Of a stretch of 30,010 nucleotides of DNA, positions 3,058 to 24,482 are shown one piece after another. Source of the stretch: a virus. Location of the stretch: positions 1 through 30,010 of IMG/VR virus record IMGVR_UViG_3300010354_000391. One strand, written 5' to 3'. Position 1 is the stretch's first letter. Each line of letters starts with the position of its first letter. Below the pieces are notes generated by a model. The model saw only the letters and a list, made by a program, of their open reading frames with translations. It did no database searches and was not told where the DNA came from. A program made the position numbers and the translations under genes.

Positions 3058-3086
3058 CCCCCCGGCCACAAACCGGGGGGTTTTTT
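3058..3086 (+). terminator. Rho-independent terminator of the + strand replication module
   Basis: CCCCCCGG (3058-3065) pairs perfectly with CCGGGGGG (3073-3080) around a 7-base loop and is followed by six T residues (3081-3086). The T run is only on the + side, so it stops + strand transcription before it enters the late operon. The last bases overlap the stop codon of the - strand polyvalent gene. Confidence 0.88.
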
Positions 3087-6000: not shown

Positions 6001-9000
6001 CATGTTACCCACGGCGTTGAAGAATCGGCGCAGTGCACTGATCGGCTCACCCTTGGGGTTAATCTGTGCTAGCCGCTGTTGGAAGTCAGGATTGCTGAAC
6101 GCTTCTGATACAAACTCATCTACTGACTTTGCACCGTACGCGCTATCGAGCGAATCTTTAACGGCTGTGAATAACTCGTTGAGTTGACGAGTCATCGGGT
6201 GCGACGTATTGGCAAGCGTCTTTAGCACCGCCGCGTGTGTTGCTTCGTGGAGCAACGCGTGGGCGTTTGCACCTTCTTTGTCGTCTAACCTGATTGTGTT
6301 GGTGTCAGGGTTGTAGTCCCCAGCCAAGGGACGTCCTTCAGCAGTCTTAAGGTCTTTGACAAATTCAACTTTGACGCCGGGCAGCGCTTTACCAAGCATC
6401 TCAGCAATCTTGGCATTTCGACCTGACATGTATTTTGCCAAAACGCCAAGCGCATCTGCCGCGTTGCCGGTGCGGAGCGCATCCATAACTTCTGGGTGCA
6501 GAGGTGCGAACACACGCACGGCCTCACGAGCCAACTCGGGGTTATCGTCTACCTGTTCCTGCACGGCCTTATCAAGGGCTTGCTTGGCGTTGAACCAATC
6601 CATACCCCGGCGCGTTTGCGCTTCGGCAGTTATGAAGAAATACTCCAACCGTTTTTGGAGTTGTTTCTTTTGGTCGGCGTTCAGGGAGTTGTAGTATGCC
6701 TCGGCGTACTTGCCCCCGGTGCCAGCGATAAAGTCATCACCGCCGGTCTTGCCGAACTTGATGGACGGCATCTCACCACGCCCCAGCGCGGCGGTAATCT
6801 CGTTCAGTTCTTTGGATACGTTCCGTTGCGGATACGTGGCCATGTAGATGTCGTGAGCTAGCGACTCCAACGCAAGATCAGGATTAGAAGAAGTCAGCCC
6901 TTCATACGCACCGAGGTTACCCTTGGATTCAGTCTTCTTGGGCTTCTCGGCTTTTTTGGGCTCCTCCCCCTTGACTTTGGTCGACTCTTTCTTCAGTGTA
7001 CTTGGCTGAGCGCCTGTTCGTTTTCCAGTGTCAGCAACAGGTTCCCCACGATCTCCCAGTCCAGCGGGCTTAGGTGCTTCAGTTCGTTTGGTATCAATAA
7101 CGGTAGGCTCTCGTCCCCCCGGTCCTTTGCCTTCTCGTACGCTCTCTTTGCCACGCACAGCGCCAGTTCGATCTCGTGCAGTGACATCTCTTGCGTCTTC
7201 ACCACGTCCTCTTGGTTGTCCACTTGGTTCCCCTTTCGCAGGCTGAGTAGTCTTCGCACGTTGCTTACCCTCCGGGAACATATCTTGCTGTTTAGATAAA
7301 CCCCCAAACGCCTGCATTGCCATACGTTCAATGGCGTCCTTCGTTCCTTGCGTGACATTCGGATTAGCGCGAACCTTCGCAAAGATATTAGCCACTTCCG
7401 GCTGTTGTGCCGGATCAGCCATGTCCATGTCAAGCAATTGCCTGTAGAACCCGGACTGCTTGGGTAAGCCCGTCTGTGCCAACACATCTGCTGTCAACTT
7501 AGTGGCAAACGGCTTCTCTTCCTGCTGCGCCAACTCTGCTTCAGAAAACGCCTCGGGAGCTTTACCTTTGGGTTTGCCCATGCCGGGCAGACTGGGCTGC
7601 TCAGGCGGGCGTTGAGTTTTCTTCTCCGGGATAAGCGACTCCATCGCTGCGTTTTCCGCAGGTGCTGAAGGCTCAATACCAAATTCGGTCGGCTCAGGTT
7701 TTTTCGTAAACAGGCGGTCGATGATGCCGTTAATACGGCGGCGCTTTACCTCAGACTCTATGACCGCACGTTCTTGATTAGTGGGGGTAGTGTCCGTGAA
7801 CCCCGCATCTTGTAAGTTCTTTACAAACTTCTGCTCTATCTTTTCGACATTAGGAACCGTTGACTCCACCACGGGTGTGAGCAACGCCATGCGATCCGCT
7901 TTGGTGCGATTCTTCTGAGCTTCAGCAACACGCTTGTCTGTCTCTGCAATTGCCGCATCCCGCTCTTGAATGAGCGTACGCAACTCAGCCGACTTGTCGT
8001 CTTCGACCATGCGCTGAATATCAGCGGTCTCCAACTCCTCAACAAGGTCACGTGTTTTTGTATCGCGCTCTGACTTCACATCAGGTGCGGTCACATCCAA
8101 ATCAGATAGCAGCTTACGTACTGCATCGAAATCTTCAGGTTCAACACGCAAGTCGCCTGTGACCGGATCAAGCGTGGTTTTGAAGTTTTCCTGAATCAAC
8201 CCACGCACGGCTTCTTGCTCTGCGTCGGGGACGCCGCGCAGAGAGATCGGTTTTGTTTCAGTGACTTGTTCTGGCCTAGTCGGCCCCACCATGCCTTCAG
8301 CAGTGGTGCGAGCTTCCGCAAGTTCGCTGGGGAACAAATCACCTTGTGGGGCTTCAGGGGTTGGCCCGGCTGGCGGTTGCCCAGTAGGGGCACCTTCAGG
8401 GGCAGCACCTTTAGGTTCGGCAAACGGCGTAGCGCCGCGACGACGCCCCGGAATAGCCATATCCAGAATCAAACTGGCTAGCACGCCAACTCCAGCACCG
8501 GTGGCTCCAGCTTCACCCGCGCCTTCAATAAGTTCTTGCCCGGGTTTGTACACCCCTTTTGCAATAGCGTTTTGAGCAACTTCCTGTGCGGCCTCTGTTG
8601 CACCTTCTACGCCACCTGAAATCAGAGCACGTTTGACAAACCCGATAGCGCGACCTGCGCCACCCGGGAAGGCAGCGAGTGCCATGTCAATTGCCGTATC
8701 AAACGCACCGGGGATTGTGCCCAGTGCTGTAGCTGTGCTTCGCTGGTCGGTAGATGCTCCACCTCGTTCGGCACGCTCACGTGCTTCACCTGCGCCAGCG
8801 GCCACACCGACGCCCACACCGGCAGCAATACCGGGCGCACCGAGCAAGCCCAGCGGAGCGACGGGTAGGAACGAGCCGATACCTTCGCCGAGGCGACGAC
8901 CGATGGAGCCTTCGTACCCTTCAGCCGCTTCAAACGGCTTCTTGGCTACCCCAGCAATCTCTTTGATCTTCTCGCGTGCGGCCTTTTCTGTGTCTTCCGG

Positions 9001-9276
9001 CAAGAGCGCACTGATACCAGTTCCTGCGGTTTCGACAAGACCAACTGCACCGGGGATGACGCCTTTGAAAAATTCTTTGACGTTACCGCCAACCGTAGTC
9101 TCCGGCGTAGGGGCGGGACGTTGGCGTGCCTCAGCTAAACGTCGCTGAATTTCAGCACTGCGTTGCTCGCGCTCATACCGCTTGGCGGCGAGGATCAGGC
9201 TCTGTTGAGAGGCACCTTCCGGCCCCTCAATCTCATAAACGGAGCCGTCCGGTGCGGTGATCTCATACAGCGGCAT
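3085..9276 (-). CDS. Giant polyvalent phage protein with HEATH metallopeptidase motif; probable ejected internal virion protein
   Basis: A 2063-residue protein, last gene of the late operon, probably packaged in the virion and injected with the DNA (inference from size, position and composition). It opens with the short beta module MPLYEITAPDGSVYEIEGPE seen at the start of many phage structural proteins. A Gly/Ala-rich hydrophobic part (about 60-280) contains VEGATEAAQE. Charged low-complexity linkers follow (about 280-770). HEATH at 1010-1014 is a zincin HExxH motif, and Glu1058 in FVSEAFSNPDF is a plausible third zinc ligand. The C-terminal third has hydrophobic helices (around ATSALLAGVQGIPMFGIAAA) and resembles the end modules of large polyvalent phage proteins. 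AAGGA precedes the ATG. A nested frame lies at 6993-7223. Confidence 0.82.
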   Translation of the reverse strand: MPLYEITAPDGSVYEIEGPEGASQQSLILAAKRYEREQRSAEIQRRLAEARQRPAPTPETTVGGNVKEFFKGVIPGAVGLVETAGTGISALLPEDTEKAAREKIKEIAGVAKKPFEAAEGYEGSIGRRLGEGIGSFLPVAPLGLLGAPGIAAGVGVGVAAGAGEARERAERGGASTDQRSTATALGTIPGAFDTAIDMALAAFPGGAGRAIGFVKRALISGGVEGATEAAQEVAQNAIAKGVYKPGQELIEGAGEAGATGAGVGVLASLILDMAIPGRRRGATPFAEPKGAAPEGAPTGQPPAGPTPEAPQGDLFPSELAEARTTAEGMVGPTRPEQVTETKPISLRGVPDAEQEAVRGLIQENFKTTLDPVTGDLRVEPEDFDAVRKLLSDLDVTAPDVKSERDTKTRDLVEELETADIQRMVEDDKSAELRTLIQERDAAIAETDKRVAEAQKNRTKADRMALLTPVVESTVPNVEKIEQKFVKNLQDAGFTDTTPTNQERAVIESEVKRRRINGIIDRLFTKKPEPTEFGIEPSAPAENAAMESLIPEKKTQRPPEQPSLPGMGKPKGKAPEAFSEAELAQQEEKPFATKLTADVLAQTGLPKQSGFYRQLLDMDMADPAQQPEVANIFAKVRANPNVTQGTKDAIERMAMQAFGGLSKQQDMFPEGKQRAKTTQPAKGEPSGQPRGRGEDARDVTARDRTGAVRGKESVREGKGPGGREPTVIDTKRTEAPKPAGLGDRGEPVADTGKRTGAQPSTLKKESTKVKGEEPKKAEKPKKTESKGNLGAYEGLTSSNPDLALESLAHDIYMATYPQRNVSKELNEITAALGRGEMPSIKFGKTGGDDFIAGTGGKYAEAYYNSLNADQKKQLQKRLEYFFITAEAQTRRGMDWFNAKQALDKAVQEQVDDNPELAREAVRVFAPLHPEVMDALRTGNAADALGVLAKYMSGRNAKIAEMLGKALPGVKVEFVKDLKTAEGRPLAGDYNPDTNTIRLDDKEGANAHALLHEATHAAVLKTLANTSHPMTRQLNELFTAVKDSLDSAYGAKSVDEFVSEAFSNPDFQQRLAQINPKGEPISALRRFFNAVGNMLRRMVGLSPKGLDSALDSADVLIGNILAPGMSALGNGTLYQASVLGTAKDVFKALDAKIIKMPGMDNQFVGGVYEVLREKIPNLTKMVILRSLPLNALTEVAAKDIPMAKQLDTLEKQWNGVIDERRRAVDATYQRIQKWIKGNPEKEALLNDVIAKSTREEVDPSKPMSDYKGQTSKSGADKEAIWKELQPKWTALEGEGQAIYNQMRDSYAESHEKLLDLLFNRIDASVTDPEEAKNLKTEIYKRLSIKGKIEPYFPLMRQGDYWVTFNAKGPDGNLEYYKMAFKTSVERDRAIRALKTDPDVEVKSIQKSSPASKRNYKNAPPTSFVNNILRVLEANKVDSAVTDDIMRVFLDTLPESSFAQAFRSRMGTLGFDTDATQVFYTKSISMAHQLGNLEYGAKMYKLRDEMEEHVNTKAKTEEARMLFDTLDRHIQTMVAPDIAPWSKVATSTAFGFTLGFNISSALVNTTQLPMVVMPYLGGKYGFTDANKAIGFATRAFFGSGLKRKAKMTGSDETVELKAGYSLDNYDFDAKDLPQDIKDLRELAEISSKYGLLSRSVAGDILEMNKDDSVLTRINNWSGFIFHHGERMNRQVSLISAYKLELDRLRKDGKELTTEDRQAAAQEAIRVTELLNGGASANSAPLLAKNSLGKIVFMYKRYGVSMYYMLFKTTRDAMSAEDPQVRAAAKRQIAGVYATSALLAGVQGIPMFGIAAALYNLFGKEDDEDDFETAARKYMGEGMFNGALNYLTGTAVANRIGLTDLLLHSTGYRDQDNAVLSFLQLAGGPVYGVADRLMRGGKMVMDGEVQRGLEQVMPAAFGNVMKGYRFATEGANTLRGDPIVGDVGTVHSLAQAFGFAPAEYTRQLEINASLKNIERRVLEDRTKLLRKYYIAMRSGDGEGARENLKDLLELNRKHPGLVTPDTIQRSMKQHMRTSATMYHGITLNKLMRGELLRNAAEFDDGLNLSEE
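6993..7223 (-). CDS. Candidate nested overlapping gene (76 codons) inside the polyvalent protein gene
   Basis: In another - strand frame of the polyvalent gene, a GTG at 7221-7223 is preceded at normal spacing by AAAGGGGA, a good Shine-Dalgarno sequence. The product is 76 residues, ending at a TGA, and looks like a real small helical protein: SLHEIELALCVAKRAYEKA, then LIPNELKHLSPLDWEIVGNL. A second start, ATG at 7185-7187, is available. The host frame here is a Lys/Glu/Pro/Gly linker (about residues 685-761) that could tolerate a second code. Function unknown. It could still be a chance frame. Confidence 0.45.
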   Translation of the reverse strand: MDNQEDVVKTQEMSLHEIELALCVAKRAYEKAKDRGDESLPLLIPNELKHLSPLDWEIVGNLLLTLENEQALSQVH

Positions 9277-11256: not shown

Positions 11257-12369
11257 TTACCCCGGAATAGTTGTAGTAGAGCCTGTGCCAGAAGTCGCTG
11301 TACCAGAGGCTGCTGTACCAGAGGTTGCTGTACCAGAAGTCGTCGCAGCGGGGGGTGTCCACACTTTTTCACCTTTGTAATAGTATTCACCCGTCGGCGC
11401 AATCGCGGTACCGTCTGTGTAATATCGCCATCCATATCCCGGCTGACCTTCAGTCGCAGGGTTAGCAATCAATGTCGGACCCCCTTCGGCGCCGCCAGAA
11501 CCGCCAGAACCGCCAGAACCACCAAAGATGCGGTCATACAAATCCATGAGGCCGCCCGATTGGTTAAGGATATTTGAAAGCGTACTAGGTTGCGAATATG
11601 AATATGTTTGCGCGGCCAACGGTAATCCTTGCAGCAACGACTGTTGGTACTGCACTTGCTTGTATGGGAAGTCCCGTTCTTCCTTGAACTGAGCAATGTC
11701 GGCTGCAATACCTTCGGACTCAATTGCCCGTTGCTGTGCGCCGAGATCGGCCTGTTTCTGCAACGCCGCAAGCCCGTAATCTTGCGCAGCTTTAGTTGCA
11801 GACAGCCCTAAATCTTGCTCTCGGTTAAACTGCGCCATCGCTTGATCGTATGCAGTCTGGTACCCTCTACCGGTAATGTTGGCCAGATTAGTTTGCAGAT
11901 TACGTTGAGCTTCTGACTCCATCAACGCACCGCGACCGCCACCGAAAGCGCCCGCTTTAGTTAGAGCCGTGCGGTTCTGTAGGTTTTGAATTTGTGATTG
12001 ACGCCGAGCCTCTGCAATCTGAGGATTGAGCGCCGCTTCAAGGTAGGGGTTCATAAGCCGACTGGCGTCTTCAGCAGTAAATTGCTGCGGCGTAAACGCC
12101 TTCATCTGCTCAGTAGGTATAGTCAACCCCGCAATACCTTGGAACGCCGTTTGCTGTACCGGAGATGCTCCTGCGGTAAGCGGTCCGGTGTAGGCTTGAT
12201 AGTCACTTCCGGCAAGCGCCTGCCCTTTGGCAAGCATGTCCGTTACATACGGACCTGCCCAGTTAGATAGTGATGACTCGGTGCCCGTTTGCTGACCTAC
12301 CCCCGAATTAGCGGCATTGGCGGTATTAGCAGTGGAATTGGTTGTGGCGGCGGTTGCGGTCGTAGTCAT
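11257..12369 (-). CDS. Internal virion protein with Gly/Ser linker and repeat tail
   Basis: A 370-residue protein of unknown function in the ejection-protein cluster. The first 30 residues are almost only Thr, Ala, Asn and Ser. The body is helical and rich in Gln, Ala and Arg, with NPYLEAALNPQIAEARRQSQ and the Gly-rich turn KAGAFGGGRGALMESEAQRN. A GGSGGSGGSGG linker follows, then a small Tyr/Trp-rich module (YGWRYYTDGTAIAPTGEYYY), and the tail is TSGTATSGTAASGTATSGT repeats. GAGG precedes the ATG. The Gly/Ser linker suggests a tethered C-terminal module, which is inference. Confidence 0.75.
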   Translation of the reverse strand: MTTTATAATTNSTANTANAANSGVGQQTGTESSLSNWAGPYVTDMLAKGQALAGSDYQAYTGPLTAGASPVQQTAFQGIAGLTIPTEQMKAFTPQQFTAEDASRLMNPYLEAALNPQIAEARRQSQIQNLQNRTALTKAGAFGGGRGALMESEAQRNLQTNLANITGRGYQTAYDQAMAQFNREQDLGLSATKAAQDYGLAALQKQADLGAQQRAIESEGIAADIAQFKEERDFPYKQVQYQQSLLQGLPLAAQTYSYSQPSTLSNILNQSGGLMDLYDRIFGGSGGSGGSGGAEGGPTLIANPATEGQPGYGWRYYTDGTAIAPTGEYYYKGEKVWTPPAATTSGTATSGTAASGTATSGTGSTTTIPG

Positions 12370-13366: not shown

Positions 13367-16300
13367 TCAACCCCTCAAAATTTTAAGCAATTCGTCATTT
13401 ACGTCGTCAAGTTCGCTGCTAACTTGGCCCCCTTGTGCATAGGGGGTGACGAACATCTTTTCCTGCGCCGGATTCGCAAAGATGCTGCTCCAGTCATAAA
13501 TGTACCCAATCTTGGCAGGATCGGGGGCTTTTACAGAAACTTGCTGGCCCCCAACGTCCGGTGACTGACTCACCATCTGCATCATGGTATTCAGGTTGCC
13601 AAGCCGTTGAGTCTTTAGCGCGGCTGCGTTTTGTGCTGCACGAGTACGCGCCGCTTGGTCAGAAATCAGCGCAGCCTGATCCGCAAATGCTTTTTCAGTT
13701 GCCGCCCGATCAGCCTCCATGGCCCCAAAAATGCCAGTGGGTGCCCACTTTGACCCCGCAGCCGGTGCATAACGGAAAGGCTGGTTTGGATCAGGTTTGT
13801 AGTCAGGCTGCTGTGACCGCAAAAACTGTTCAATTGCAACGCGGTCTTTTTGGTCGATTACGCGGTCAGCGTTGTAATCCAAAGTTGGGTCATACGCACC
13901 TTGGGTTTGCAGCAAGTTGATGATTGCATCGAGGTCTTGCTGTGTAGCGGGTGTAGTTTGCCGACCAATTGTGGCTTCCAGCCCGCTAATTTGTCCTTGT
14001 AGTTGTGTTTTAACCGTGTCGATTGCGGTGTTGAGGTCTACCCCTTGAGCAACCAATCGATCAGTTAGCGCCTTTTGATCGGCTGTAAGCGTTGCATACT
14101 TTGTTTGTATGTCTTGCTGCAACCCTGTGATTTGGGTTTGCGTTTGTTGTTGGGCCTGTTGAATTGCAGTGTTTAAGTCAGCACCCTGCTGCACCAACTG
14201 ATCAGCCAAGGCTTTTTGCTGTGCGGTCAGTGCGTTGTATTTAGCTTGCACATCAGCAGTTACAAGCCCCAGTTGCTGCTCAAGTCCTGCTTTTAGGTTC
14301 GCCTCTGTGGTGCCAAGTTGCGCTAACAGATCGGCTTTCGTGGTGCCAAGTTGCTGCGAAACGCTAGTAATTGCCAACGACAACGCATCGTCTCGGGCTA
14401 CCCCCGCTTGCTCGTACGCCGCCATCTGATTAAGGATGGACCGTTGTACCTCACCCAGTTGTGTTTGCACCCCACCGATTTGGGTAGCAAATTCTTGCCG
14501 AAGCGCTGTTTCCGTAGTCCCAAGCTGTGCAAGCAAGTCAGCCCGAGTCGTTCCAAGATTTCCAGCAACGGTGTTAATCGCGGCTTGAAGGGCTGCATCT
14601 CCGGCTAACCCCGCAGCTTTTGCATCAGCGATAGCTTGCGTAAGTGCAGCTTCAACTCCACTAATTTGTGTTTGCACCCCACCGATTTGGGCCGCAAATT
14701 CCTGACGGAGACCAGATTCCGTAGTCCCAAGCTGCGCCAACAGATCGGCTTTCGTAGTGCCGAGGTCACCCGCAACTGTGTTGATTGCCGCCTGTAGAGC
14801 GGCATCCCCTTGGAGCCCCGCAGCTTTCGCATCAGCGATAGCTTGCGTAAGTGATGTTTGAACGTCCGTAATTTGCCTAGTAACGCTACCCGACAAACCT
14901 TCAAGTTTTGTCGTAAAGTCTGCGCCTAGATCAGAAAGTTGGACGCCAAGTTCGGACAGCGCTTGGGTAGTCGCATCTTGATACGACCTACCTTGTGCCA
15001 TGAGGGCTTGCACCTTGGCATCAAACGCTTCAGATTGTTCGCCAAGGGCGGTTTTTAACGATGTTTGTACATCCCCAATTTTAGCTTCTAGGTTTGTACG
15101 CAACTCGCCAAGCGCCGTCGTATTACCTTGCGCGGCTTCTGTCAACGCCGTTCTAAATTGCGAAGAAAGGTTCGTACTGGACTGCGTGACAATTGATTGC
15201 ACCTGCTCGGTTGTCAATCCGGCTGCTTTTAGATCGGCAATCGCTTTATCGACATCACCAAACCGTGCTGTGTTACCACGCTCTACCGCTGCAATTGCTT
15301 CAGTGAGACTTTGTTTTGCAGTGGCCACATCACCAGATAGCTTCGTTACATCGCCACCCAGCGCGGTAATCTGTGCATTTAGGTCTTGTTTAACTTTGGC
15401 AATTGCGTCAAGCGTCTCTTGACTTGCGCCAACGGTCAGCCCATCAAGTTGTTCCATGATGGAGTTGTATCGAGCCGAGTCAAAATTAGCCTGAGCTTTC
15501 CCTGCCAATTCCGTTTCGGCGTATTGCCCCATCAATTTACGAACGTCTTCTTGCGTCGGCTTTTTCAGCCCCAGTGCTTCGTACGCCGCACGAGCCTCTT
15601 GCTCATCGACCAAGCGTGGGTCTACGTAAGCACCAATAGCGGTTTGTTGTTGCCGTTCGTTTGTTGCGGCAACAAACTGGCGAATCTCAGCGTCGCTAGG
15701 TTTATACCCAAGATCGGATAGGTACTTTTTAGCTTCATCAAACGTAACGGTATTTTCACCAACATAGCCAGTGATAGCTTGCTGCTGTGCAGCCTCTTGC
15801 ACCTGCCCAACAAATTGTTGAACTTGTGCCGCAGTTGGCGTGACGTTGAACCCAAGCGCTTTGTAGGAATCCGCGAGGTACTTAGCGGCTTCTTCAGTTG
15901 TTACCGCCTGTGGGTCGTATTGGGCACGCGCTGCAAGAGTTGCAGCGGCTTCGTCTTTTTGCCCAACCAACGCAGCAGCTTGTTCGTCCGTAAGCGTGTA
16001 CCCTTCTGCGGCGGCAGCAGCTTTGGCTTCGTTAATGTCAAACACACGCGGATCAACGTAGCTTTCAACCGCCGCATCAAGATTAGAATTTGGCGTAGCC
16101 CCAGTAAGTGCTTTTACATCGGCATCGGTGTATGCGTAGTCAGACCGTTTTGCAAGCGCAGTTTGCGCTTCATTACTACTTGTGTATTGCGAATCGTACT
16201 TCGTGTTCAACAAGTTTGCTTGCGTTCCGGCGTCTGTAACGCCAAGGTTTTGCAAAGCGCTTGTTGCCGCAGCAGCGTTGGGGGCAGTTTGAATGGTGTC

Positions 16301-19300
16301 CGCAACCATAGGGTTAGCAAGCAACGCATTAGAAATTACATCGCCTGCGCGGGATGCGCCATACGCACCGCCAGCAATTGGTCCACCAGCAATCGCACCA
16401 AACGCAGCGGCGGCTGTGATGTTGCCTGCCACATCTCGTGTTGGATCGAGCTTATAGAGTTGCGTTTCAAGGAAGGCTTGAATGACCGCTTCTTCACCTG
16501 CTTCGGTGGTACCTTCTTTGATGGCAATTTTGGAACCGGTCTTTGCAAAATCTCCCATTGCTTGCAGCGCATCGCCAAGACCCGTCCCAGTTCTACCAAT
16601 CAACGCTTTTTCAAGCGCCGCACCGCCAATACCCATGGTGACGGCAGTTGTGCCCGCAGCAACCAATGCACTACGCTGCGCAATATCGATAGCAATCTTG
16701 TCTGCATCGGCTTCAGATTTACCCGCTTTGCGGGCGGCGGCGTACGCTTCATCGTACGCATTCTTTGCAGAACCCCCTGCCGACTCAATGATGTCAGTGG
16801 TCATGGCAGCAGTCATACCCGCAGCCGTGCCGACCCGTTGACCAACCGCCTGTCCGTACTTGAGCGCTAACGTAGCGCCCTTTGCACCTGCCGAGGCAAC
16901 CCCACCAATCAAAAGGGGTGCAACCTCCTGTATACCTTCAACACCGACGTACTCGGCCAAGAACTCCAGCGGGGCAGATTTGAACGCGCCGTAAATAGCT
17001 TTGAGCGTGCCACCAACACCCTTGGCTTCGCCAATCATTGACTGCATGTTCTTGATTGCAGCTTGGTATTCGGTAGTGTTTCCAGCCTTCCCAATACCTT
17101 GCAACGCTTCGGCAAACTTACCCAGCGCCGTATCTTTTGGCGCGGCTCCAACCAGCACCGAGATACCGTTGATGGACTCAAGGAAACCACCACCGGCTTT
17201 GATGACGTTTGCCGCTGTATTAATAAGCGTCGAATTGCCTGTGTCTTTAGCCCAGTTCACCAATGTCTGGGCACCGTCCACAATTGCTTTACCAACAACA
17301 CTCGTCCATGAACCGGGATCAGCCCCATACGCCAACAACTTATCAACTTCTGTTGGACGTTTACCAGTAACAACGACTGGCGCAAGTGTAGTTGTGTACG
17401 ACCCGGTAGCGGCATCCCAATTTTGTGGCGCAGTTTTTGGGTCTTCTATGACCCAGACAGGACGACCGTCTGTAGTACGCACGAGCTTGGCGCTATCATT
17501 GTTAAACTCTTCCGCCGTTGCGTAGCGAAGCCCTGCGGGCAATGAAAATTTATCTGCGGGGGGTTCTCTCCACGCCCCATAAGCAGTACCTGATACTTCA
17601 ATACGAATAACACCGTTTTGCTGGTCATCCAACATTCTGGTGACCATAGTGTAGTTATCGCTCAAAACGCTTTGCGCAGTTGCCGTACGGAGTGCAGCCA
17701 CATTATTACCGTACTTTGCATCGAGGTTGTCGATGATTTTTCCCATCTGCGCAGGATCAGCAGTTGAAGTGTTGACGCCTTTTAAGGCAAGTGCTTCTTC
17801 TAAAAGCCTTGTACGCTGCGAAACGATTTCGGCTTGGGCTGCTTTGAAGTTTGTTGGTGCGTTTTGAAATTGCCCTTTATCCAGAAAGTGTTCGTACGGG
17901 TCTTCGGTACTCGCCAACCCATTCAACTTACGATATTCCTCCGCGTTAAACCCCGGACTCATTACCTCGACAAATGCACGGTTGGATGTAAAGTACAGAG
18001 GGTCTAATAGCGAAGTAAGTTTGTCAGTGCTTGTTGCAAAGGATTTGATAAAGGCTTCGTAGTCGTTCGTCAACAACGCGTGGTTTTGCTTAAGTTTGTC
18101 GAGTTCCCCACCGTACTTTTCTAAGTTTGGTCGAAAGTACTCCGCGTAGTCTTTGTTTAGCGACGTGATGTAGCTATCCGCAGCCTGCTTTGCAGCGACC
18201 GCAGCGTTGTATTTTTCTTCGTTTGTATTGTCTGCTTCTAATGCGGCGCGAGTATCATTTGCAACTTTAATTAGACGATTTTGCTCGTCGATACGTCCTT
18301 GTAGTTGGTTACGTACACTGTTGTAGTTGTCAACGGCGGTACGTTGCGTTGCTTCATTAGCTTTGATTTCCTCAGCTTTGGTATCTGCTTTTTGATACGC
18401 AGCTTTAGTTTCAGTAGTCGCAGTCTTAAAAGCACCGGTAATCATGTCACCAAGGGCTTTAGACCCAGCGGTCATCATGGCCGCGCTGACGACGTTTGAT
18501 GGATTTCCATTTGTAAGCGCAGCGGTTGCTGTACCCATCAAGATGTCGGTAACGATTGCACGTTGTACGTCATCGAGCTTGCTACCTGATGGGTCAAATG
18601 ACTTTAGCGCTCCTGTTACAACCCCCGAAGCGGCGATGGTGGCACCAATAGTGGCAGCGGTTACGTTCTGCCCAGAAAGTTCGGCTGTAACCGCAGCCGA
18701 GATAACGCGTTGTGCTGAACCGGGAAGTTGTTGGAACCCTGTGACTTGTCCTAACACTGCCGGTACTGCTGCACCGACGCCGCCGGTTATAAGAGCTTGA
18801 ACCGGGTCTCTACCCGCAACAACTGCAACTGCTGCTGAACCCGCAGCCGCGCCAACAATGTCGCTAGCAATAGCGGAAGCAGTTCCCATTCCTGCTTCTT
18901 GCGCGGCCAACATTGCAGCCTGCGTACCAGAAGTACCATATTGCGCACCTGCTGCCGCTTCACCTGCTGCCGCTCCAGCGGCTTTGCCAACATACGACCC
19001 GACCTGCTGCATGACGTATGCTTTGGCCGTAGCCTCTAACACATCACCAACATCGCCGCCTGCAATTGCAACATCTGCCCCTTCAATGAGTGGTAACGCC
19101 CAATACTGTTGGGTAGCTATAGCGGCAACTTGTGCAATTGTCTTGATTGGGTCGTTAAGTGCGCCTTCAATAACTTTACCAACTGCCCTTCCTACTGGGG
19201 CAACAATCTTGTCGGCAACGAAGTCAACTACGTCAACGACAGCATTGCCGACGGACTCAATGACATCGCCAACGGCTTCACCAATCGCTTCAATGGCGTT

Positions 19301-19315
19301 AATGACGGCCGACAT
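13367..19315 (-). CDS. Giant internal virion/ejection protein with helical repeats, coiled coil and dockerin-like loop
   Basis: A 1982-residue protein. Residues 1-60 form an Ala/Val amphipathic helix that could insert in membranes. Residues 60-310 and about 700-1010 are Gly/Ala-rich and hydrophobic, with EGTTEAGEEAVIQ shared in type with the polyvalent protein. FNAEEYRKLNGL (from 456) plus DPYEHFLDKGQF resembles NPDV-type repeats. Four 46-51-residue helical repeats fill 1087-1279. A long coiled coil with three 69-residue repeats follows. A loop DYNADRVIDQKD (1813-1824) fits the dockerin/EF-hand calcium pattern. The end holds KIGYIYDWSSIF and YAQGGQ. It probably forms an ejected channel or scaffold (inference). 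A tape measure is the alternative. Confidence 0.8.
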   Translation of the reverse strand: MSAVINAIEAIGEAVGDVIESVGNAVVDVVDFVADKIVAPVGRAVGKVIEGALNDPIKTIAQVAAIATQQYWALPLIEGADVAIAGGDVGDVLEATAKAYVMQQVGSYVGKAAGAAAGEAAAGAQYGTSGTQAAMLAAQEAGMGTASAIASDIVGAAAGSAAVAVVAGRDPVQALITGGVGAAVPAVLGQVTGFQQLPGSAQRVISAAVTAELSGQNVTAATIGATIAASGVVTGALKSFDPSGSKLDDVQRAIVTDILMGTATAALTNGNPSNVVSAAMMTAGSKALGDMITGAFKTATTETKAAYQKADTKAEEIKANEATQRTAVDNYNSVRNQLQGRIDEQNRLIKVANDTRAALEADNTNEEKYNAAVAAKQAADSYITSLNKDYAEYFRPNLEKYGGELDKLKQNHALLTNDYEAFIKSFATSTDKLTSLLDPLYFTSNRAFVEVMSPGFNAEEYRKLNGLASTEDPYEHFLDKGQFQNAPTNFKAAQAEIVSQRTRLLEEALALKGVNTSTADPAQMGKIIDNLDAKYGNNVAALRTATAQSVLSDNYTMVTRMLDDQQNGVIRIEVSGTAYGAWREPPADKFSLPAGLRYATAEEFNNDSAKLVRTTDGRPVWVIEDPKTAPQNWDAATGSYTTTLAPVVVTGKRPTEVDKLLAYGADPGSWTSVVGKAIVDGAQTLVNWAKDTGNSTLINTAANVIKAGGGFLESINGISVLVGAAPKDTALGKFAEALQGIGKAGNTTEYQAAIKNMQSMIGEAKGVGGTLKAIYGAFKSAPLEFLAEYVGVEGIQEVAPLLIGGVASAGAKGATLALKYGQAVGQRVGTAAGMTAAMTTDIIESAGGSAKNAYDEAYAAARKAGKSEADADKIAIDIAQRSALVAAGTTAVTMGIGGAALEKALIGRTGTGLGDALQAMGDFAKTGSKIAIKEGTTEAGEEAVIQAFLETQLYKLDPTRDVAGNITAAAAFGAIAGGPIAGGAYGASRAGDVISNALLANPMVADTIQTAPNAAAATSALQNLGVTDAGTQANLLNTKYDSQYTSSNEAQTALAKRSDYAYTDADVKALTGATPNSNLDAAVESYVDPRVFDINEAKAAAAAEGYTLTDEQAAALVGQKDEAAATLAARAQYDPQAVTTEEAAKYLADSYKALGFNVTPTAAQVQQFVGQVQEAAQQQAITGYVGENTVTFDEAKKYLSDLGYKPSDAEIRQFVAATNERQQQTAIGAYVDPRLVDEQEARAAYEALGLKKPTQEDVRKLMGQYAETELAGKAQANFDSARYNSIMEQLDGLTVGASQETLDAIAKVKQDLNAQITALGGDVTKLSGDVATAKQSLTEAIAAVERGNTARFGDVDKAIADLKAAGLTTEQVQSIVTQSSTNLSSQFRTALTEAAQGNTTALGELRTNLEAKIGDVQTSLKTALGEQSEAFDAKVQALMAQGRSYQDATTQALSELGVQLSDLGADFTTKLEGLSGSVTRQITDVQTSLTQAIADAKAAGLQGDAALQAAINTVAGDLGTTKADLLAQLGTTESGLRQEFAAQIGGVQTQISGVEAALTQAIADAKAAGLAGDAALQAAINTVAGNLGTTRADLLAQLGTTETALRQEFATQIGGVQTQLGEVQRSILNQMAAYEQAGVARDDALSLAITSVSQQLGTTKADLLAQLGTTEANLKAGLEQQLGLVTADVQAKYNALTAQQKALADQLVQQGADLNTAIQQAQQQTQTQITGLQQDIQTKYATLTADQKALTDRLVAQGVDLNTAIDTVKTQLQGQISGLEATIGRQTTPATQQDLDAIINLLQTQGAYDPTLDYNADRVIDQKDRVAIEQFLRSQQPDYKPDPNQPFRYAPAAGSKWAPTGIFGAMEADRAATEKAFADQAALISDQAARTRAAQNAAALKTQRLGNLNTMMQMVSQSPDVGGQQVSVKAPDPAKIGYIYDWSSIFANPAQEKMFVTPYAQGGQVSSELDDVNDELLKILRG
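13844..13879 (-). other. Dockerin/EF-hand-like calcium-binding loop
   Basis: This segment encodes DYNADRVIDQKD, residues 1813-1824 of the giant virion protein. Asp, Asn, Asp, Asp and Asp fall at loop positions 1, 3, 5, 9 and 12, with Ile at position 8, exactly the EF-hand/dockerin ligand spacing. Helix-like sequence flanks both sides. Only one loop is visible, whereas true dockerins carry two. Confidence 0.55.
14250..14870. repeat. Three 207-bp tandem repeats coding a coiled coil
   Basis: Matching blocks recur with a 207-bp period: AACAGATCGGCTTTCGT at 14325 and 14739 (414 bp apart), and ATCAGCGATAGCTTGCGTAA at 14624 and 14831 (207 bp apart). Each unit encodes 69 residues, including LGTTKADLLAQLGTTE and AALTQAIADAKAAGL. 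The two copies nearest 14870 are the most alike, which suggests recent duplication. Confidence 0.8.
15478..16057. repeat. Four divergent 46-51-residue helical repeats
   Basis: Protein-level repeats in the giant virion protein (residues 1087-1279), starting at VDPRV, DPQAV, VGENT and VDPRL. Each has an EA-rich helix, an LG(Y/F/L)xPT-like turn, and most have FVGQ or a relative. They are diverged at DNA level, so older than the 207-bp repeats. Confidence 0.65.
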
Positions 19316-19318
19316 CTA

Positions 19319-19774
19319 TCATTGCCCTTGTTGCATAACAACGTAGGCCCGCATGCTGCCATCCGGTTTTTTGTACACTTTCATCCCCCAATGTGAAAAT
19401 TCAGGGCGGTTGGCAATAGACTTGAACAACTGCAAAATACGTTTGTCGTTGAAGTCACTAGTCATCCGTGCCACACCGGATTCGGCTAGACGCGTTACAT
19501 AGGCAATTGAATTGTCGAGGTAGTTGCGAGCCGTATCCAAATTCATCGCCCGCATCGCAACTTCTAATTTATCCTCGCTATAGTGGGTAATGAACACAGT
19601 ATTGCCAATCTGCTCAACCGTTGCGTTTGGTAGTGACCCCTCACTGACAACACCAAGAATCGCAGCTTGTAGCGGCATGTCTCCAAGCAAATTGGCTTTC
19701 TTTGCATCCGCCAATGCGCCCGCAATGATGTCAGAAATTGGCAGCTTTTTCTCTTTACTGTTTGTAATCGGCAT
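19319..19774 (-). CDS. Unknown protein downstream of the ketoacyl synthase
   Basis: A 151-residue protein with no function I can name. ATG at 19772-19774 is preferred because it lies 1 bp after the ketoacyl synthase stop and begins a natural sequence (MPITNSKEKKLPISDI); an in-frame start at 19831 would overlap the synthase by 56 bp. The protein looks soluble and mixed alpha/beta: ISDIIAGALADAKKANLLGD, then GNTVFITHYSEDKLEVAMRA, then a C-terminal strand pair, MKVYKKPDGSMRAYVVMQQG. The spacing implies coupled translation with the ACP/KAS genes, so a linked role is possible. It equally could be a structural protein of the late operon. Confidence 0.75.
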   Translation of the reverse strand: MPITNSKEKKLPISDIIAGALADAKKANLLGDMPLQAAILGVVSEGSLPNATVEQIGNTVFITHYSEDKLEVAMRAMNLDTARNYLDNSIAYVTRLAESGVARMTSDFNDKRILQLFKSIANRPEFSHWGMKVYKKPDGSMRAYVVMQQGQ

Positions 19775-19775
19775 C

Positions 19776-20882
19776 TTAGTTCCCCACCGAAAAAATGGCG
19801 GCTGAATAGACGTTTCCCATACCCGCCGCAAGCGAAAGCAGCAACCCCTCTGGCCTTGGCTGGGCGTCAGACAAAAATACGGTGTCCGTTTCTGTCCTGT
19901 TTGGGATAGCGGGAATCACCCCCGCGTGCATATCCTGCGCCATAAGGCAAGTCTCCAACAGCCCACTAGCCCCCATTGTATGCCCTATGACAGGTTTATA
20001 GGAAGTAGCTACGAACCCATCTGGCAACAAATGAGCTAAGGCAGCGCGTTCTGCCATGTTGTTCGATGCGGTTCCAGTGCCGTGGGTCTTAACAACTCGC
20101 ACATCCCAAGCGTACACTTGAGCCATCTGCATGGCCCCTTCCGCCGCCCGTACAAACCCCAACCCAGAATCAAGCTGTCCAAGGGGGTTATCGCACGGCT
20201 CACTGGCAGTGTACGCACCCCGCAACCGAGCTTTTGCTGCCGAATCGGTATGGTCAGCCTCAAAAACGGCAAAAACCGCCCCCTGCCCTACGTAGAAACC
20301 CTGATTTTTGGCGTCAAACGCCGACGGTACGGTGCCTTCTTCGGCCTCGCGTTTCTTAGTCAAGCAGGCTTTGGCTTCCCCAAAGAACTCCAATACGAGA
20401 TTACTTACCGCGTCTTCGACTGATAAGACAACCACCCGTTCAAATCCATAGTACCGGATGAGCGTCTGCACATCCATGAGCACCTTGAGGCTACTGGCAC
20501 ACGCCGAAGAATCTGTAACCACATGATCCGTAGCCCCGCAGGCTTGCGCGACCCGCCCGGCGTAAACCTGAGTAAGGGTCATCGGAAGAAAACGGTAGTT
20601 GTAAGTTAACCGGGACTCGCGGGGAGATGGGGGGATTCCGGCAAAGTGCGCGTTACCTGCGGCAAGAATAAACGCTGACTTCTTTACAGGTCTGTCCCGA
20701 AGCGACTTCAAAAATTCAGCGTCTAGCACTTTGTCGGCTAGCCGATGCGGCGGGTACGTCAACCCCGTCTTAACCCGAGCGTACGTGTCGGGGAACCAAT
20801 GCACCCTTTGCGGGAACGTAACGTCCTCAAGAAGTTCAGTTTGTGTTGTGAAGGCCGTGCGGAAATCAACGAGCTTCACCAT
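19776..20882 (-). CDS. Beta-ketoacyl-ACP synthase, KAS I/II (FabF/FabB) type
   Basis: Predicted to condense an acyl thioester with malonyl-ACP in fatty acid or polyketide chain extension. The full active site is visible: nucleophile Cys128 in TDSSACASSL, His267 in KTHGTGTASNNMAE, and Lys296 with His301 in KPVIGHTMGASGLLE. FDAKNQGFYVGQGA (189-202) matches the conserved FDxxRxGFxxGEGA region, with Gln200 in place of Glu. Cys-His-His marks KAS I/II rather than FabH (Cys-His-Asn). At 368 residues it is shorter than bacterial FabF (about 410) and lacks the usual N-terminal VVITGxG segment. The C-terminal gating GFGG is replaced by GMGN. The ATG overlaps the ACP stop by 7 bp, with GGAG upstream, so translation is coupled. 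Fold and catalytic set are sure; substrate is unknown. Confidence 0.92.
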   Translation of the reverse strand: MVKLVDFRTAFTTQTELLEDVTFPQRVHWFPDTYARVKTGLTYPPHRLADKVLDAEFLKSLRDRPVKKSAFILAAGNAHFAGIPPSPRESRLTYNYRFLPMTLTQVYAGRVAQACGATDHVVTDSSACASSLKVLMDVQTLIRYYGFERVVVLSVEDAVSNLVLEFFGEAKACLTKKREAEEGTVPSAFDAKNQGFYVGQGAVFAVFEADHTDSAAKARLRGAYTASEPCDNPLGQLDSGLGFVRAAEGAMQMAQVYAWDVRVVKTHGTGTASNNMAERAALAHLLPDGFVATSYKPVIGHTMGASGLLETCLMAQDMHAGVIPAIPNRTETDTVFLSDAQPRPEGLLLSLAAGMGNVYSAAIFSVGN

Positions 20883-21160
20883 TGCACGCGCTCCATGGCC
20901 TCGTCTTCAGACGTAGGCTCTTGCGTTTTGTGCTGCAACATAAGCTGCAACATCTCCGCCGGAGTCTGCGGGGTCATCTCTTTGACAAGGGCTTCAGGCA
21001 CCCCATAGATGTCTGAATAGAAGATCGACAACATCAAGGTGTCCATGCTGTCGAGGCCAGTATCTGGCCAAGAGATGTCCATTGTCGTCAATGGCGTGTA
21101 ATCAGTGTGTGCAGGCCGCGCCAGTCGTGCAAGGCGGTTAAATAAAGCAAGATCGTCCAT
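20876..21160 (-). CDS. Acyl carrier protein
   Basis: A 94-residue carrier protein that should hold acyl chains on a phosphopantetheine arm. DTGLDSMDTLMLSIF (33-47) is the ACP signature, with Ser38 as attachment site, compared with the usual DxGxDSLD. Helix II and the following YGVPEALVKEMTPQTPAEML fit helices II-III. The C-terminus (about 80-94) is a short acidic tail beyond the usual ACP length. GAGGT lies 7 bases before the ATG. It is the first gene after a 92-bp gap holding a candidate promoter and overlaps the ketoacyl synthase start by 7 bp. No phosphopantetheinyl transferase is in the window, so the host's would be needed (inference). Confidence 0.88.
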   Translation of the reverse strand: MDDLALFNRLARLARPAHTDYTPLTTMDISWPDTGLDSMDTLMLSIFYSDIYGVPEALVKEMTPQTPAEMLQLMLQHKTQEPTSEDEAMERVQW

Positions 21161-21252: not shown

Positions 21253-22635
21253 TCACTGCGTCAGGTCATAAAACGACAAAGACCCAACCGCGTCCCCGGT
21301 CGTGGCCCCCGAAACAGTCCGAATAGCAACCGTATATATGTCACTGACACCGGCGATTGACACGCCTAGTTGTAGATCAAAGTTGTACCCAGTCGGCGCA
21401 GCCAACCCCGGAGCACCCCCTGATCCAGAAGCCGTTGTGTAGTCCGTCTGCACGATGGAGCCGCCAGCCACGCCGGTGGAGGCAACGTCATATTCCACGT
21501 TTGCATCCGTTGGCACCGGCACCCATGTTGTTGGTCCCGTCAGTGCCGGATTTTTGATGAGCGCCACTTCGTAATTTTGGCTGGTGGTAGGCAAAACTTG
21601 GATACGATTTGGCAACACAACTGCTCCTGTCCTTGCCGCCGCCAAACGAATCGAAACCAACGGCAAGAAGGTATTGCTGATCGTCCCCAAAATTGAAGTG
21701 CGTCGCGCTACGTGGTCAATCGATGTTTGCTCAAATCCACCTTCAGAGACTACTGAACAACAAATTGCCTTCATCGACGCTGCCACCGCCGCAGTGGCTG
21801 ACACAATTTCATACCGCACCGGCAAGATGGCCGTAGTCATGTAGACCGAACTGCCGTAGACGTTGGCAGTGTTGAAGGTGTGGCAGACGATGTATTCGCC
21901 GTTGATGATAAATCCGCAACGAACAGAACCCACTCCAAGCCACTCAAAGTCCATCCACAAAATTTGTGGGTGGGACAAATCGAGCGTCAACCCCGAAGCG
22001 CCAGTACCGTCAAGTTTGTCACCGTTCCAATCGGCTTGGTTTACAAAGCGGGCATCGGACGCCGTACCCGACGTATAGGTGCGCATGACAAACGATAGGG
22101 TGGAACCATTCTTTTTGAAGAACACGCCGTTCTGGGCGTTGTAGTACCCCACTTGCTGCGTAAGATTAGTGCTTGTGCTGGTATCCATAACGAAGGTTGC
22201 TAGAAGCAACAACCCTTTACCCGGCTGATACGGAAACGAACGGTATGACTGGCGGATCACGGAGCCTACGCCCGCACCAGTGACCTCCATCTTGACGGCG
22301 GCTTCGTTAGGCAAAAATGTGGTTGTACCTGTACCGGTCGTCGCAACATCAAACTGATTGTCGGCTGCATAACGATTCTGGCTGTCAAATAATGTATAGG
22401 GTTGGCTTACACGCAACCGCCCGAAAGCGTCTGTATTAGTGCCACCAATTGATACCGGTAACGTGTCCATGTTTGTCATAAGCTGCCCCAGAATGCTGTT
22501 CAAACGGTTGAAGTACAACCGCAGCACGTTGTTGAATTGGTCTTGGTAGTCTTTGGAATACTGGAGCGTGGCTTGAGGGAGCGCAGGTGGCGCTATGCGT
22601 TGAAGTTCATAGTCCGTAGTAACAATAAACGTCAT
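21253..22635 (-). CDS. Virion structural protein, probably tail
   Basis: A 460-residue protein with no specific family I can name. The first 60 residues are helical with YSKDYQDQFNNVLRLYFNRL. The rest is Ser/Thr/Gly-rich beta structure: AFGRLRVSQPYTLFDSQNRY begins a sandwich- or lectin-like domain with WMDFEWLGVGSVRCGFIING. A second beta domain ends at GDAVGSLSFYDL. The pattern of an N-terminal helix then beta domains suits a tail-attached fibre or appendage (inference). The ATG overlaps the stop of the nozzle gene by one base (TGATG), a coupled arrangement. It is the last gene before the 92-bp gap and the ACP-KAS pair. Confidence 0.75.
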   Translation of the reverse strand: MTFIVTTDYELQRIAPPALPQATLQYSKDYQDQFNNVLRLYFNRLNSILGQLMTNMDTLPVSIGGTNTDAFGRLRVSQPYTLFDSQNRYAADNQFDVATTGTGTTTFLPNEAAVKMEVTGAGVGSVIRQSYRSFPYQPGKGLLLLATFVMDTSTSTNLTQQVGYYNAQNGVFFKKNGSTLSFVMRTYTSGTASDARFVNQADWNGDKLDGTGASGLTLDLSHPQILWMDFEWLGVGSVRCGFIINGEYIVCHTFNTANVYGSSVYMTTAILPVRYEIVSATAAVAASMKAICCSVVSEGGFEQTSIDHVARRTSILGTISNTFLPLVSIRLAAARTGAVVLPNRIQVLPTTSQNYEVALIKNPALTGPTTWVPVPTDANVEYDVASTGVAGGSIVQTDYTTASGSGGAPGLAAPTGYNFDLQLGVSIAGVSDIYTVAIRTVSGATTGDAVGSLSFYDLTQ

Positions 22636-24482
22636 CAGCGTCTCCCATCTTTACGCATGTCCAAACGTGGAGAGCCAAGCTGCCATGCGACCCCAAGACC
22701 AGAGGAAGACACCTTCAAAATCATTTGCCGTCCACGCACCTTCACAAAGACCTGCCCAGTAAACTTCTCAATAGGCACCGTGGCCGACCGTACGACGGGT
22801 GTGACGTTTGTTCCACCAACAGAAGCAGGAGTGGTGTACCCCGCACCCGAATTGACCATAGGCAGCAGCGTCATCGTAACCGCCGGATTAGCGGCGTTTG
22901 ACCCACTGAAGTTCATATCTGGAAGCATGCGCCAGATGTACATAAAGTTGTGACCGTCGTCCAAGTCAAACTCTGACGAAGAAATAAAGGCTTCGATGGC
23001 TTCGACGTTATCTGTTTCAGCGTTGTCGTTACCAACTTCATGCGCCACTAAGTTGTGGTTGTATGTTGCTGCAATTGGGTTGTTGACAATGCCTGAGTCA
23101 ACCCACGCGGTTCGAGCCATTGAGCCGTAGTACCACACATCTTCGGCATAGTTATAGACGACGTAGCTGTTAATGGCTGTACTCGACCCAGAGCAATAGA
23201 ACCACCAAATCTCGTTAAACGCTTCGTTCGTACCTGCAAAAATTTGCGTGTACTGGTCCATGTTTAAGTTGTTAAAGACGAACTGCCGCAGATCACAACG
23301 TAGAGTTTGTGTACGCCCATCGTACTTGTAAAACTTGTCCACACCCATCCAGTACGCTACGCCGTTGGCGTATGCCACGGCATTCTCACTTGCGATAGAA
23401 GTGTTCTCGCCCACCAACTGCGCAGACCACACAATCGGTGCACCGACGTATTGCAGCGAATAAAGCGATGTATCCGTCCAGACCAAGATTTCCTGACGAG
23501 ACTGCGTAGCAGTCACGATCTCTGACCCACGCGACAAGCGTAAGAACCCCGCTTGGTTTGTCGGAGCCGGGGTCCAATTTGTGGCGTCTTCCTGATCGGA
23601 CCAACGAATCAGCATGGCATCGAAGGTGCCATCTTGCTCACACCCCAGTGCAAAGACAAATCGGCTTACATCCGACACGAGCAAAAAATTCTGTTGAGTT
23701 GGGACGCCGGATGCGCCCATCATGTCAGCCAAAGCAACAGCGCGGGTGTTCAAACCCGCCGACGCATCCCAGTAGTAAATTGCACCTCCACGTGGACCAA
23801 AGATCAAATCTTCACCAAAATTTGATTGGCTCCATAGGCGCAAGGATTTTGTAGAGGGCTGTCCAATACCCCATGGGCCAGACCCCCATGTAGAAGACCC
23901 CCACCCTACCAACGGGACGGCAATTGCGGCCCCCGTGTTGATTTGATATGCAGCGGTCACCGTTCCACCGCCGTTAGCGGTTGCAGACGCTGGAGTTCCA
24001 GCATCTATAGTGAACGTAGTAGTAAGTTGATCGACGGAAATGATTTCGTATTCGCCACTTATGGTAAGCCCACCTACGGGTGCGGCCCCGCTAAAAGTTA
24101 CGAAATCTCCGGCCAACAAATTGCCCATGCCCGCATCGGTCACGGTCACAATACTGTCACCACTTACCGTATCAAATGGGTTAGTCAGGGTGTTGGTTTC
24201 TTCGATAGGGGTGATGTCGTAATACGCACCACCACTCTCAACATAAAACTTGAGGTTGGTACCGACCCCGGTATAAATCAGCCCATCTAGCGTGCTCCAC
24301 TGATGCAGTGACCGGCACACCCCCAAAAAAGTGTTTTCAGAAATGCGTTCCCACCCGCCAATCTTCTCGGGGGTACCTTGACGAAAGCGCACCTTATCGG
24401 ACTCATACCAGCCCCCCTCGGTCGTGTATCGAGTGTTCTCCCGGTTTACCCCGGGACGCAATTTCAGTTTTTGTAACGGCAT
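22635..24482 (-). CDS. Tail nozzle / DNA stabilisation protein, P22 gp10-like
   Basis: A 615-residue beta-rich protein. The opening LRPGVNRENTRYTTEGGWYE followed by VRFRQGTPEKIGGWERI (31-47) is the hallmark of phage stabilisation proteins like P22 gp10, which plug the short tail and keep packaged DNA in. Repeated beta segments with GVGTNLKFYV, FIFxGxNE-like and WSxxxxNW-like stretches, such as WSDQEDATNW, fit a propeller-type fold. An acidic helix precedes a C-terminal beta domain ending near GVAWQLGSPRLDMRKDGRR. The AGGA box is about 9 bases before the ATG. This gene is the main support for a podovirus-like tail. The family call is by pattern; T7 gp12-like nozzle is the close alternative. 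Confidence 0.72.
   Translation of the reverse strand: MPLQKLKLRPGVNRENTRYTTEGGWYESDKVRFRQGTPEKIGGWERISENTFLGVCRSLHQWSTLDGLIYTGVGTNLKFYVESGGAYYDITPIEETNTLTNPFDTVSGDSIVTVTDAGMGNLLAGDFVTFSGAAPVGGLTISGEYEIISVDQLTTTFTIDAGTPASATANGGGTVTAAYQINTGAAIAVPLVGWGSSTWGSGPWGIGQPSTKSLRLWSQSNFGEDLIFGPRGGAIYYWDASAGLNTRAVALADMMGASGVPTQQNFLLVSDVSRFVFALGCEQDGTFDAMLIRWSDQEDATNWTPAPTNQAGFLRLSRGSEIVTATQSRQEILVWTDTSLYSLQYVGAPIVWSAQLVGENTSIASENAVAYANGVAYWMGVDKFYKYDGRTQTLRCDLRQFVFNNLNMDQYTQIFAGTNEAFNEIWWFYCSGSSTAINSYVVYNYAEDVWYYGSMARTAWVDSGIVNNPIAATYNHNLVAHEVGNDNAETDNVEAIEAFISSSEFDLDDGHNFMYIWRMLPDMNFSGSNAANPAVTMTLLPMVNSGAGYTTPASVGGTNVTPVVRSATVPIEKFTGQVFVKVRGRQMILKVSSSGLGVAWQLGSPRLDMRKDGRR

Follow-up and report, generated by a model that had tools for sequence, protein, structure and literature searches.

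The window, meaning the whole stretch of DNA analysed here, is a linear IMG/VR virus record of 30,010 bp. It encodes an acyl carrier protein (ACP) and a divergent beta-ketoacyl-ACP synthase (KAS) in a run of same-strand virion genes (Table 1). The initial annotation had described a carrier protein with a DSM site at Ser38, a synthase with Cys128, His267, Lys296, and His301 intact, a 7-bp overlap between the two genes, and same-strand virion genes on both flanks. Each of these observations was borne out: the residues lie at the positions given, and the flanking context was confirmed because the neighbouring genes match phrog_1645 and phrog_3287 upstream and, weakly, phrog_4287 downstream. The nozzle-type gene has an orthologue annotated as “phage stabilization protein” in phage record MW202545. 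The 1982-aa protein has no PHROG match.

Table 1. Features of the ACP-KAS locus and its surroundings in the window.
Feature	Coordinates	Strand	Basis or key residues
Acyl carrier protein (ACP), 94 aa	20876..21160	−	Phosphopantetheine Ser38 in D-S-M-D
Beta-ketoacyl-ACP synthase (KAS), divergent, 368 aa	19776..20882	−	Cys128-His267-Lys296-His301
ACP/KAS overlap, 7 bp, translational coupling	20876..20882	−	Sequence
GNAT-fold protein, 151 aa, probable T7 gp13 / P22 gp14 counterpart	19319..19774	−	AF2 + Foldseek
Virion structural protein, upstream of ACP-KAS	21253..22635	−	phrog_1645, E 1.7e-100
Virion/tail nozzle-type protein (packaged-DNA stabilisation family)	22635..24482	−	phrog_3287, E 5.5e-71
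1982-aa protein, inferred ejection-protein position	13367..19315	−	Follows GNAT-fold gene in nearly all loci
Ejection-protein homologue	11257..12369	−	Weak match to phrog_4287 “DNA ejection protein”, E 1.4e-4

Adjoining the ejection genes, a 2063-aa protein (3085–9276, minus strand) contains LPD39 as a domain and is matched by DarB-like antirestriction polyproteins. On the strand opposite to the virion operon, a 930-aa ORF with DUF927 (helicase/primase-like) runs off the contig end (3–2795, plus strand). Scans of the operon for regulatory signals were uninformative, because promoter-like sites did not exceed chance and the 14 terminator-like sites (shuffle mean, 7.2) were scattered and mostly within genes. 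A search for defence genes with PADLOC returned no match for the ACP, the KAS, or the 151-aa gene, and a defence role for them was rejected on this ground.

The 151-aa protein downstream of the pair is predicted with high confidence (AF2 pLDDT 92.1) to adopt a GNAT fold, with GNAT acetyltransferases as its Foldseek matches in the PDB (best E 1.5e-4) and an “Internal virion protein A” and a DUF2824 protein as its structural matches in BFVD. It matched no PHROG at E ≤ 0.01. By its position, the gene presumably corresponds to T7 gp13 and P22 gp14. The GNAT fold and the place between nozzle and ejection genes are common to these genes and the 151-aa gene (for ejection-gene order, see PMC8954989), and the relation is drawn from fold and position, there being no sequence-profile match. 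The 151-aa protein resembles internal virion proteins of podophages. In addition, phrog_5838 (1106 aa) matches the virion protein upstream of the pair as well as, at a weak E of 0.054, the GNAT-fold gene. This hints that phages lacking the cassette have these two genes side by side or as one fusion.

Identity and distribution of the ACP-KAS pair

The KAS scores above the Pfam cut-offs for PF02801 (58 vs. 20.8 bits) and PF00109 (42.5 vs. 20.8 bits), and its four catalytic residues are invariant in all 65 distinct relatives. Its predicted structure (AF2 pLDDT 90.9) resembles the actinorhodin ketosynthase, FabF, and KasA in Foldseek searches (TM ~0.8, E ~1e-21) at only 16–21% identity. By its Pfam scores, catalytic set, and predicted thiolase fold, the protein is a member of the beta-ketoacyl synthase superfamily. 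The thiolase fold and the Cys-His-His-Lys set are common to it and to FabF/KAS II, FabB, KasA, and type II PKS ketosynthases, and with the FabF/KAS II group it also has the GHxxGASG and HGTGT motifs in common. However, it differs from that group in several respects. It is 19–23% identical to E. coli FabF and FabB and to a Streptomyces ketosynthase, whereas FabF and FabB are 39% identical to each other, and it falls far below the FabF equivalog cut-off TIGR03150 (99.5 vs. 493.75 bits). Its N-terminus is shorter than that of FabF by about 38 residues and lacks the VTGxGxxSPxG segment, GMGN replaces the gatekeeper GFGG (GFGGTN) of FabF, and it belongs to a viral clade of its own.

The ACP is recognised mainly through its relatives. 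The window member has no Pfam match when searched alone, but a profile built from 38 ACP relatives finds solved ACPs (best E 1.4e-5), and 15 of the 38 match PF00550 at E ≤ 0.1 (best 6e-4; the window member is not among them). Its PHROG matches are phrog_28189 and phrog_5934, “acyl carrier protein”. Residues D37, S38, D40, and K60 are invariant, and the phosphopantetheine site D-S-[LM] is kept, in 60 of 60 distinct relatives. Helix II carries a charge of −2 (range −3 to −1, n = 60) compared to −6 in E. coli AcpP, and this lower acidity points to less exchange with FAS partners of the host and, through it, to a dedicated acyl pool. A small phage ACP with a phosphopantetheine serine is likewise found in Erythrobacter phage vB_EliS-R6L (ORF32), for which the accessible text of the report describes no coupled KAS (PMC5463345), whereas the ACP and KAS of the window form a cassette.

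A scan of viral contigs with a single protein recovered 82 relatives, and a profile scan found KAS encoded on at least 572 IMG/VR contigs; these contigs are fragmentary, come from overlapping samples, and are not independent, and the counts are uncorrected for sampling. A KAS tree, as proposed in the initial annotation, grouped all 90 viral KAS representatives in one separate clade, which has a support of 0.90 and a stem 3.8 substitutions per site long. A pattern-based scan of 84,980 prokaryote genomes with two peptide patterns retrieved a single close relative, which lies within a MAG on a contig that carries this phage operon, and plasmid ketosynthases reach 27–31% identity to the KAS at best. 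Among 50,697 phage records, the only close relative was found in MW202545 (Caudoviricetes sp. ctpbd312), which has the same gene order as the window, a KAS of 66% identity annotated as 3-oxoacyl-ACP synthase, and an ACP of 41% identity annotated as “hypothetical”. On the evidence of these sequence comparisons, the ACP-KAS pair of these uncultured phages is a large virus-specific family, so far found only in phages.

Recent capture of a host gene, or an artefact of assembly or contamination, might be suspected from some Enterococcus, Listeria, and Staphylococcus “phage” records that resemble bacterial FabF carry-over, but is contradicted by the separate viral clade with its long stem, the number of carrier contigs, the conserved gene order, and the fact that the one close match in prokaryote genomes is a phage operon. 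The order of ACP, KAS, and the 151-residue gene, which the initial annotation had suggested searching for, was found in nearly all contigs with enough flank, and its recurrence across contigs excludes chance or an assembly artefact. The annotation had also named two findings that would speak against it, namely absence of the genes from all related phages together with identity to a host locus, and loss of the catalytic residues in close relatives; both were looked for and neither was observed. For the window locus, capture or artefact is regarded as refuted, as the scan found no close cellular relative, and its probability is negligible. Because they probably stem from bacterial FabF carry-over, the KAS matches in the unannotated Enterococcus, Listeria, and Staphylococcus entries were left out of account. 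Several deposited phage records (hits H2–H12 and H25–H49 of the phage collection) have FabF/FabB-like matches that resemble bacterial sequence. A contig filed under a Balneolaceae MAG (L083) is a phage contig with the ACP-KAS operon, and its host assignment is unsafe.

Both KAS and ACP are under purifying selection, with a median dN/dS of 0.079 and 0.213, respectively (0.097 for the 151-aa neighbour), and the G+C content of the cassette tracks that of its carrier phage. Of 211 loci, 166 have a 4-bp overlap between ACP and KAS and a further 11 a 7-bp overlap, making 177 loci with either arrangement. Pairwise distances of KAS and ACP are strongly correlated (r = 0.80; partial r = 0.76 with nozzle-gene distance controlled for, p = 0.001 by permutation), compared to r = 0.44 for KAS and the nozzle gene. 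The distances of KAS and the GNAT-fold gene also co-vary (partial r = 0.55), which adjacency alone could explain.

Two genomic sites and joint gain and loss

In most loci the pair is found at a virion site with the order nozzle gene, small or tail gene, ACP, KAS, GNAT-fold gene, and ejection genes. In two separate clades it occupies a replication site, with an SNF2-type helicase on one side and a 105-aa gene on the other, in the surroundings of a D5-type primase, DUF2800, an Enc34-type ssDNA-binding protein, and ribonucleotide reductase. A scan seeded with the helicase yielded 11 loci with the pair and 26 in which the helicase is directly next to the 105-aa gene. The locus L254, which has the pair, and the loci L256 and L257, which do not, are 99.3–99.5% identical over 1.7–3.1 kb of upstream DNA and 92.9–94.8% identical over 3.6–8.6 kb downstream, and the difference between them is exactly 1,395 bp (L254 11378–12772) comprising ACP and KAS.

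Presence and absence also vary at the virion site. Among 80 loci found with the 151-aa gene as seed, 61 have both genes, four have KAS but are truncated at the ACP end, five have ACP only, eight have neither gene, and two are uninformative. In the ACP-only loci (L190, L194, L195, L204, and L211), ACP lies directly before the GNAT-fold gene, and KAS is absent throughout these records. In the 68-kb record G029, the virion site is occupied by the pair (L109, L296) and the replication site is empty (L288), and three replication-site relatives with no KAS in the record (G048, G050, and G053) have the same nozzle gene with an empty virion site. No record has two KAS copies; each carrier record has one. 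Within a single phage lineage, two unrelated operon sites have gained or lost ACP and KAS jointly.

The late location of the pair had led the initial annotation to propose membrane remodelling at assembly or lysis, or acylation of a virion protein. This proposal was not supported, as the same pair occurs in a replication/nucleotide operon in two clades, comes and goes there as an exact two-gene unit, and is missing from the virion site of similar phages. Since the same unit works from the replication operon, the argument for late assembly is weakened, and a virion function cannot be read from a place among late virion genes alone. A virion-linked role, whether acylation of virion or ejection proteins or membrane remodelling at assembly or lysis, with the GNAT-fold neighbour as a possible acyltransferase, could draw on the location of the pair between nozzle and ejection genes in most loci and on the fold of that neighbour, whose distances track those of KAS more than the nozzle distances do. 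However, the pair in the replication operon lives without the GNAT-fold neighbour, and the neighbour is not specific to the pair, being accompanied by neither gene in 8 of 80 loci. Moreover, by inspection of its alignment, the neighbour lacks the RxxGxG/A CoA-binding motif and has RALNADTA after the strand at residues 71–78. Because the motif is missing and the gene occurs without ACP-KAS, the 151-aa protein is not counted as a partner acyltransferase; an ACP-KAS-transferase trio with an HlyC-like acyltransferase was likewise rejected, as gene and pair each occur alone and the protein has no CoA motif. A dedicated acyltransferase was not recognised, the searches for companion enzymes being directed at PPTase and ketoreductase. 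A virion-linked role is thus considered improbable. Because the unit is gained or lost at two different sites, it probably serves metabolism in the infected cell and is not a part of the virion.

Possible role of the pair in the infected cell

KAS and ACP together are the minimal chain-elongating core of fatty acid synthesis, and with the residues intact the window pair agrees with the condensing core recognised in the initial annotation. The accompanying view that host enzymes are needed for the cycle is also supported, as neither PPTase (PF01648) nor ketoreductase (PF13561) was detected in any of 42 related virus records, of which 29 bear the KAS, in a search directed at these two families. 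The explanation that we favour, with a little better than even confidence, is that ACP and KAS may form an accessory cassette for a dedicated condensing pair, which would draw on the PPTase, malonyl supply, and reductases of the host and would not belong to the virion machinery. A host PPTase would add phosphopantetheine at Ser38 of the ACP, and the host malonyl-CoA:ACP transferase (FabD) would load malonate onto it. Cys128 of the KAS would then accept an acyl group and condense it with malonyl-ACP, with His267 and His301 serving decarboxylation, and host reductases may complete the cycle. In this way, the pair could hold its own acyl pool and make or divert a specific acyl product during infection.

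Among the usual marks of an auxiliary metabolic gene (AMG), recent homology to a host metabolic gene was not found, there being no close cellular relative, and an accessory nature is evident, with ACP-KAS present in some phages and missing in close relatives. Viral AMGs of the fabF and fabG types have been reported from lake sediment and the deep ocean (PMC12783922, PMC10653327), and acpP-fabF-fabG has been reported from Rhodobacteraceae prophages (PMC8224337). These are precedents for a role in bulk auxiliary metabolism, in which the pair would raise elongation flux into host FAS II for membrane or energy, with KAS and ACP as the elongation core and the remaining steps left to host enzymes. 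In the Rhodobacteraceae prophages, ACP and KAS are likewise reported as AMGs, but fabG is included and the order is host-like, whereas the window pair is without fabG and its KAS is remote from host FabF. Such a booster would more likely be expected as a recent host-like copy, and this expectation is at odds with a KAS of about 20% identity to FabF/FabB that scores well short of the FabF equivalog, and with an ACP without a strongly acidic helix II. Bulk supply is therefore held to be unlikely. A dedicated pair with its own acyl pool seems the likelier of the two arrangements, in view of the weakly acidic ACP helix, the reshaped N-terminus and gatekeeper of the KAS, and the strong co-variation of ACP and KAS.

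The ACP-only loci fit strict orthogonality of the pair less well, because an ACP without KAS implies that its role can be completed by host enzymes. That the ACP can be useful without its own KAS also accords with a different possibility, in which it would act on host lipid synthesis, or on ACP-sensing proteins such as SpoT, as a decoy or regulator, and the KAS would be a sink for malonyl- or acyl-ACP, slowing lipid synthesis or signalling. Presence/absence variation is typical for host-takeover genes, and an interaction of ACP with SpoT is known in E. coli (PMC3340395). On the other hand, the invariant catalytic residues and low dN/dS of the KAS argue for a productive enzyme, and a less acidic helix II would weaken many contacts of the ACP with host partners, so that a decoy role has little likelihood.

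A description of a phage-encoded ACP-KAS cassette was not found in the literature searched. Earlier reports describe phage ACPs and fabF-type genes singly as AMGs, with no tested function; here, a coupled pair with catalytic residues intact forms a large virus-specific family for which the scans retrieved no close cellular relative. Near-isogenic phages that differ by exactly ACP and KAS offer a natural comparison by which the function of a lipid-type phage gene is directly testable. More tentatively, the virus-only KAS lineage and an orthogonal ACP might constitute a minimal viral synthase of a dedicated acyl or polyketide-like product, and not of membrane fatty acid; we consider this possible but doubtful. 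If true, the product would be used by the phage against or inside its host. As the pair lies at the virion site in most known carriers, late expression would be common, though not universal.
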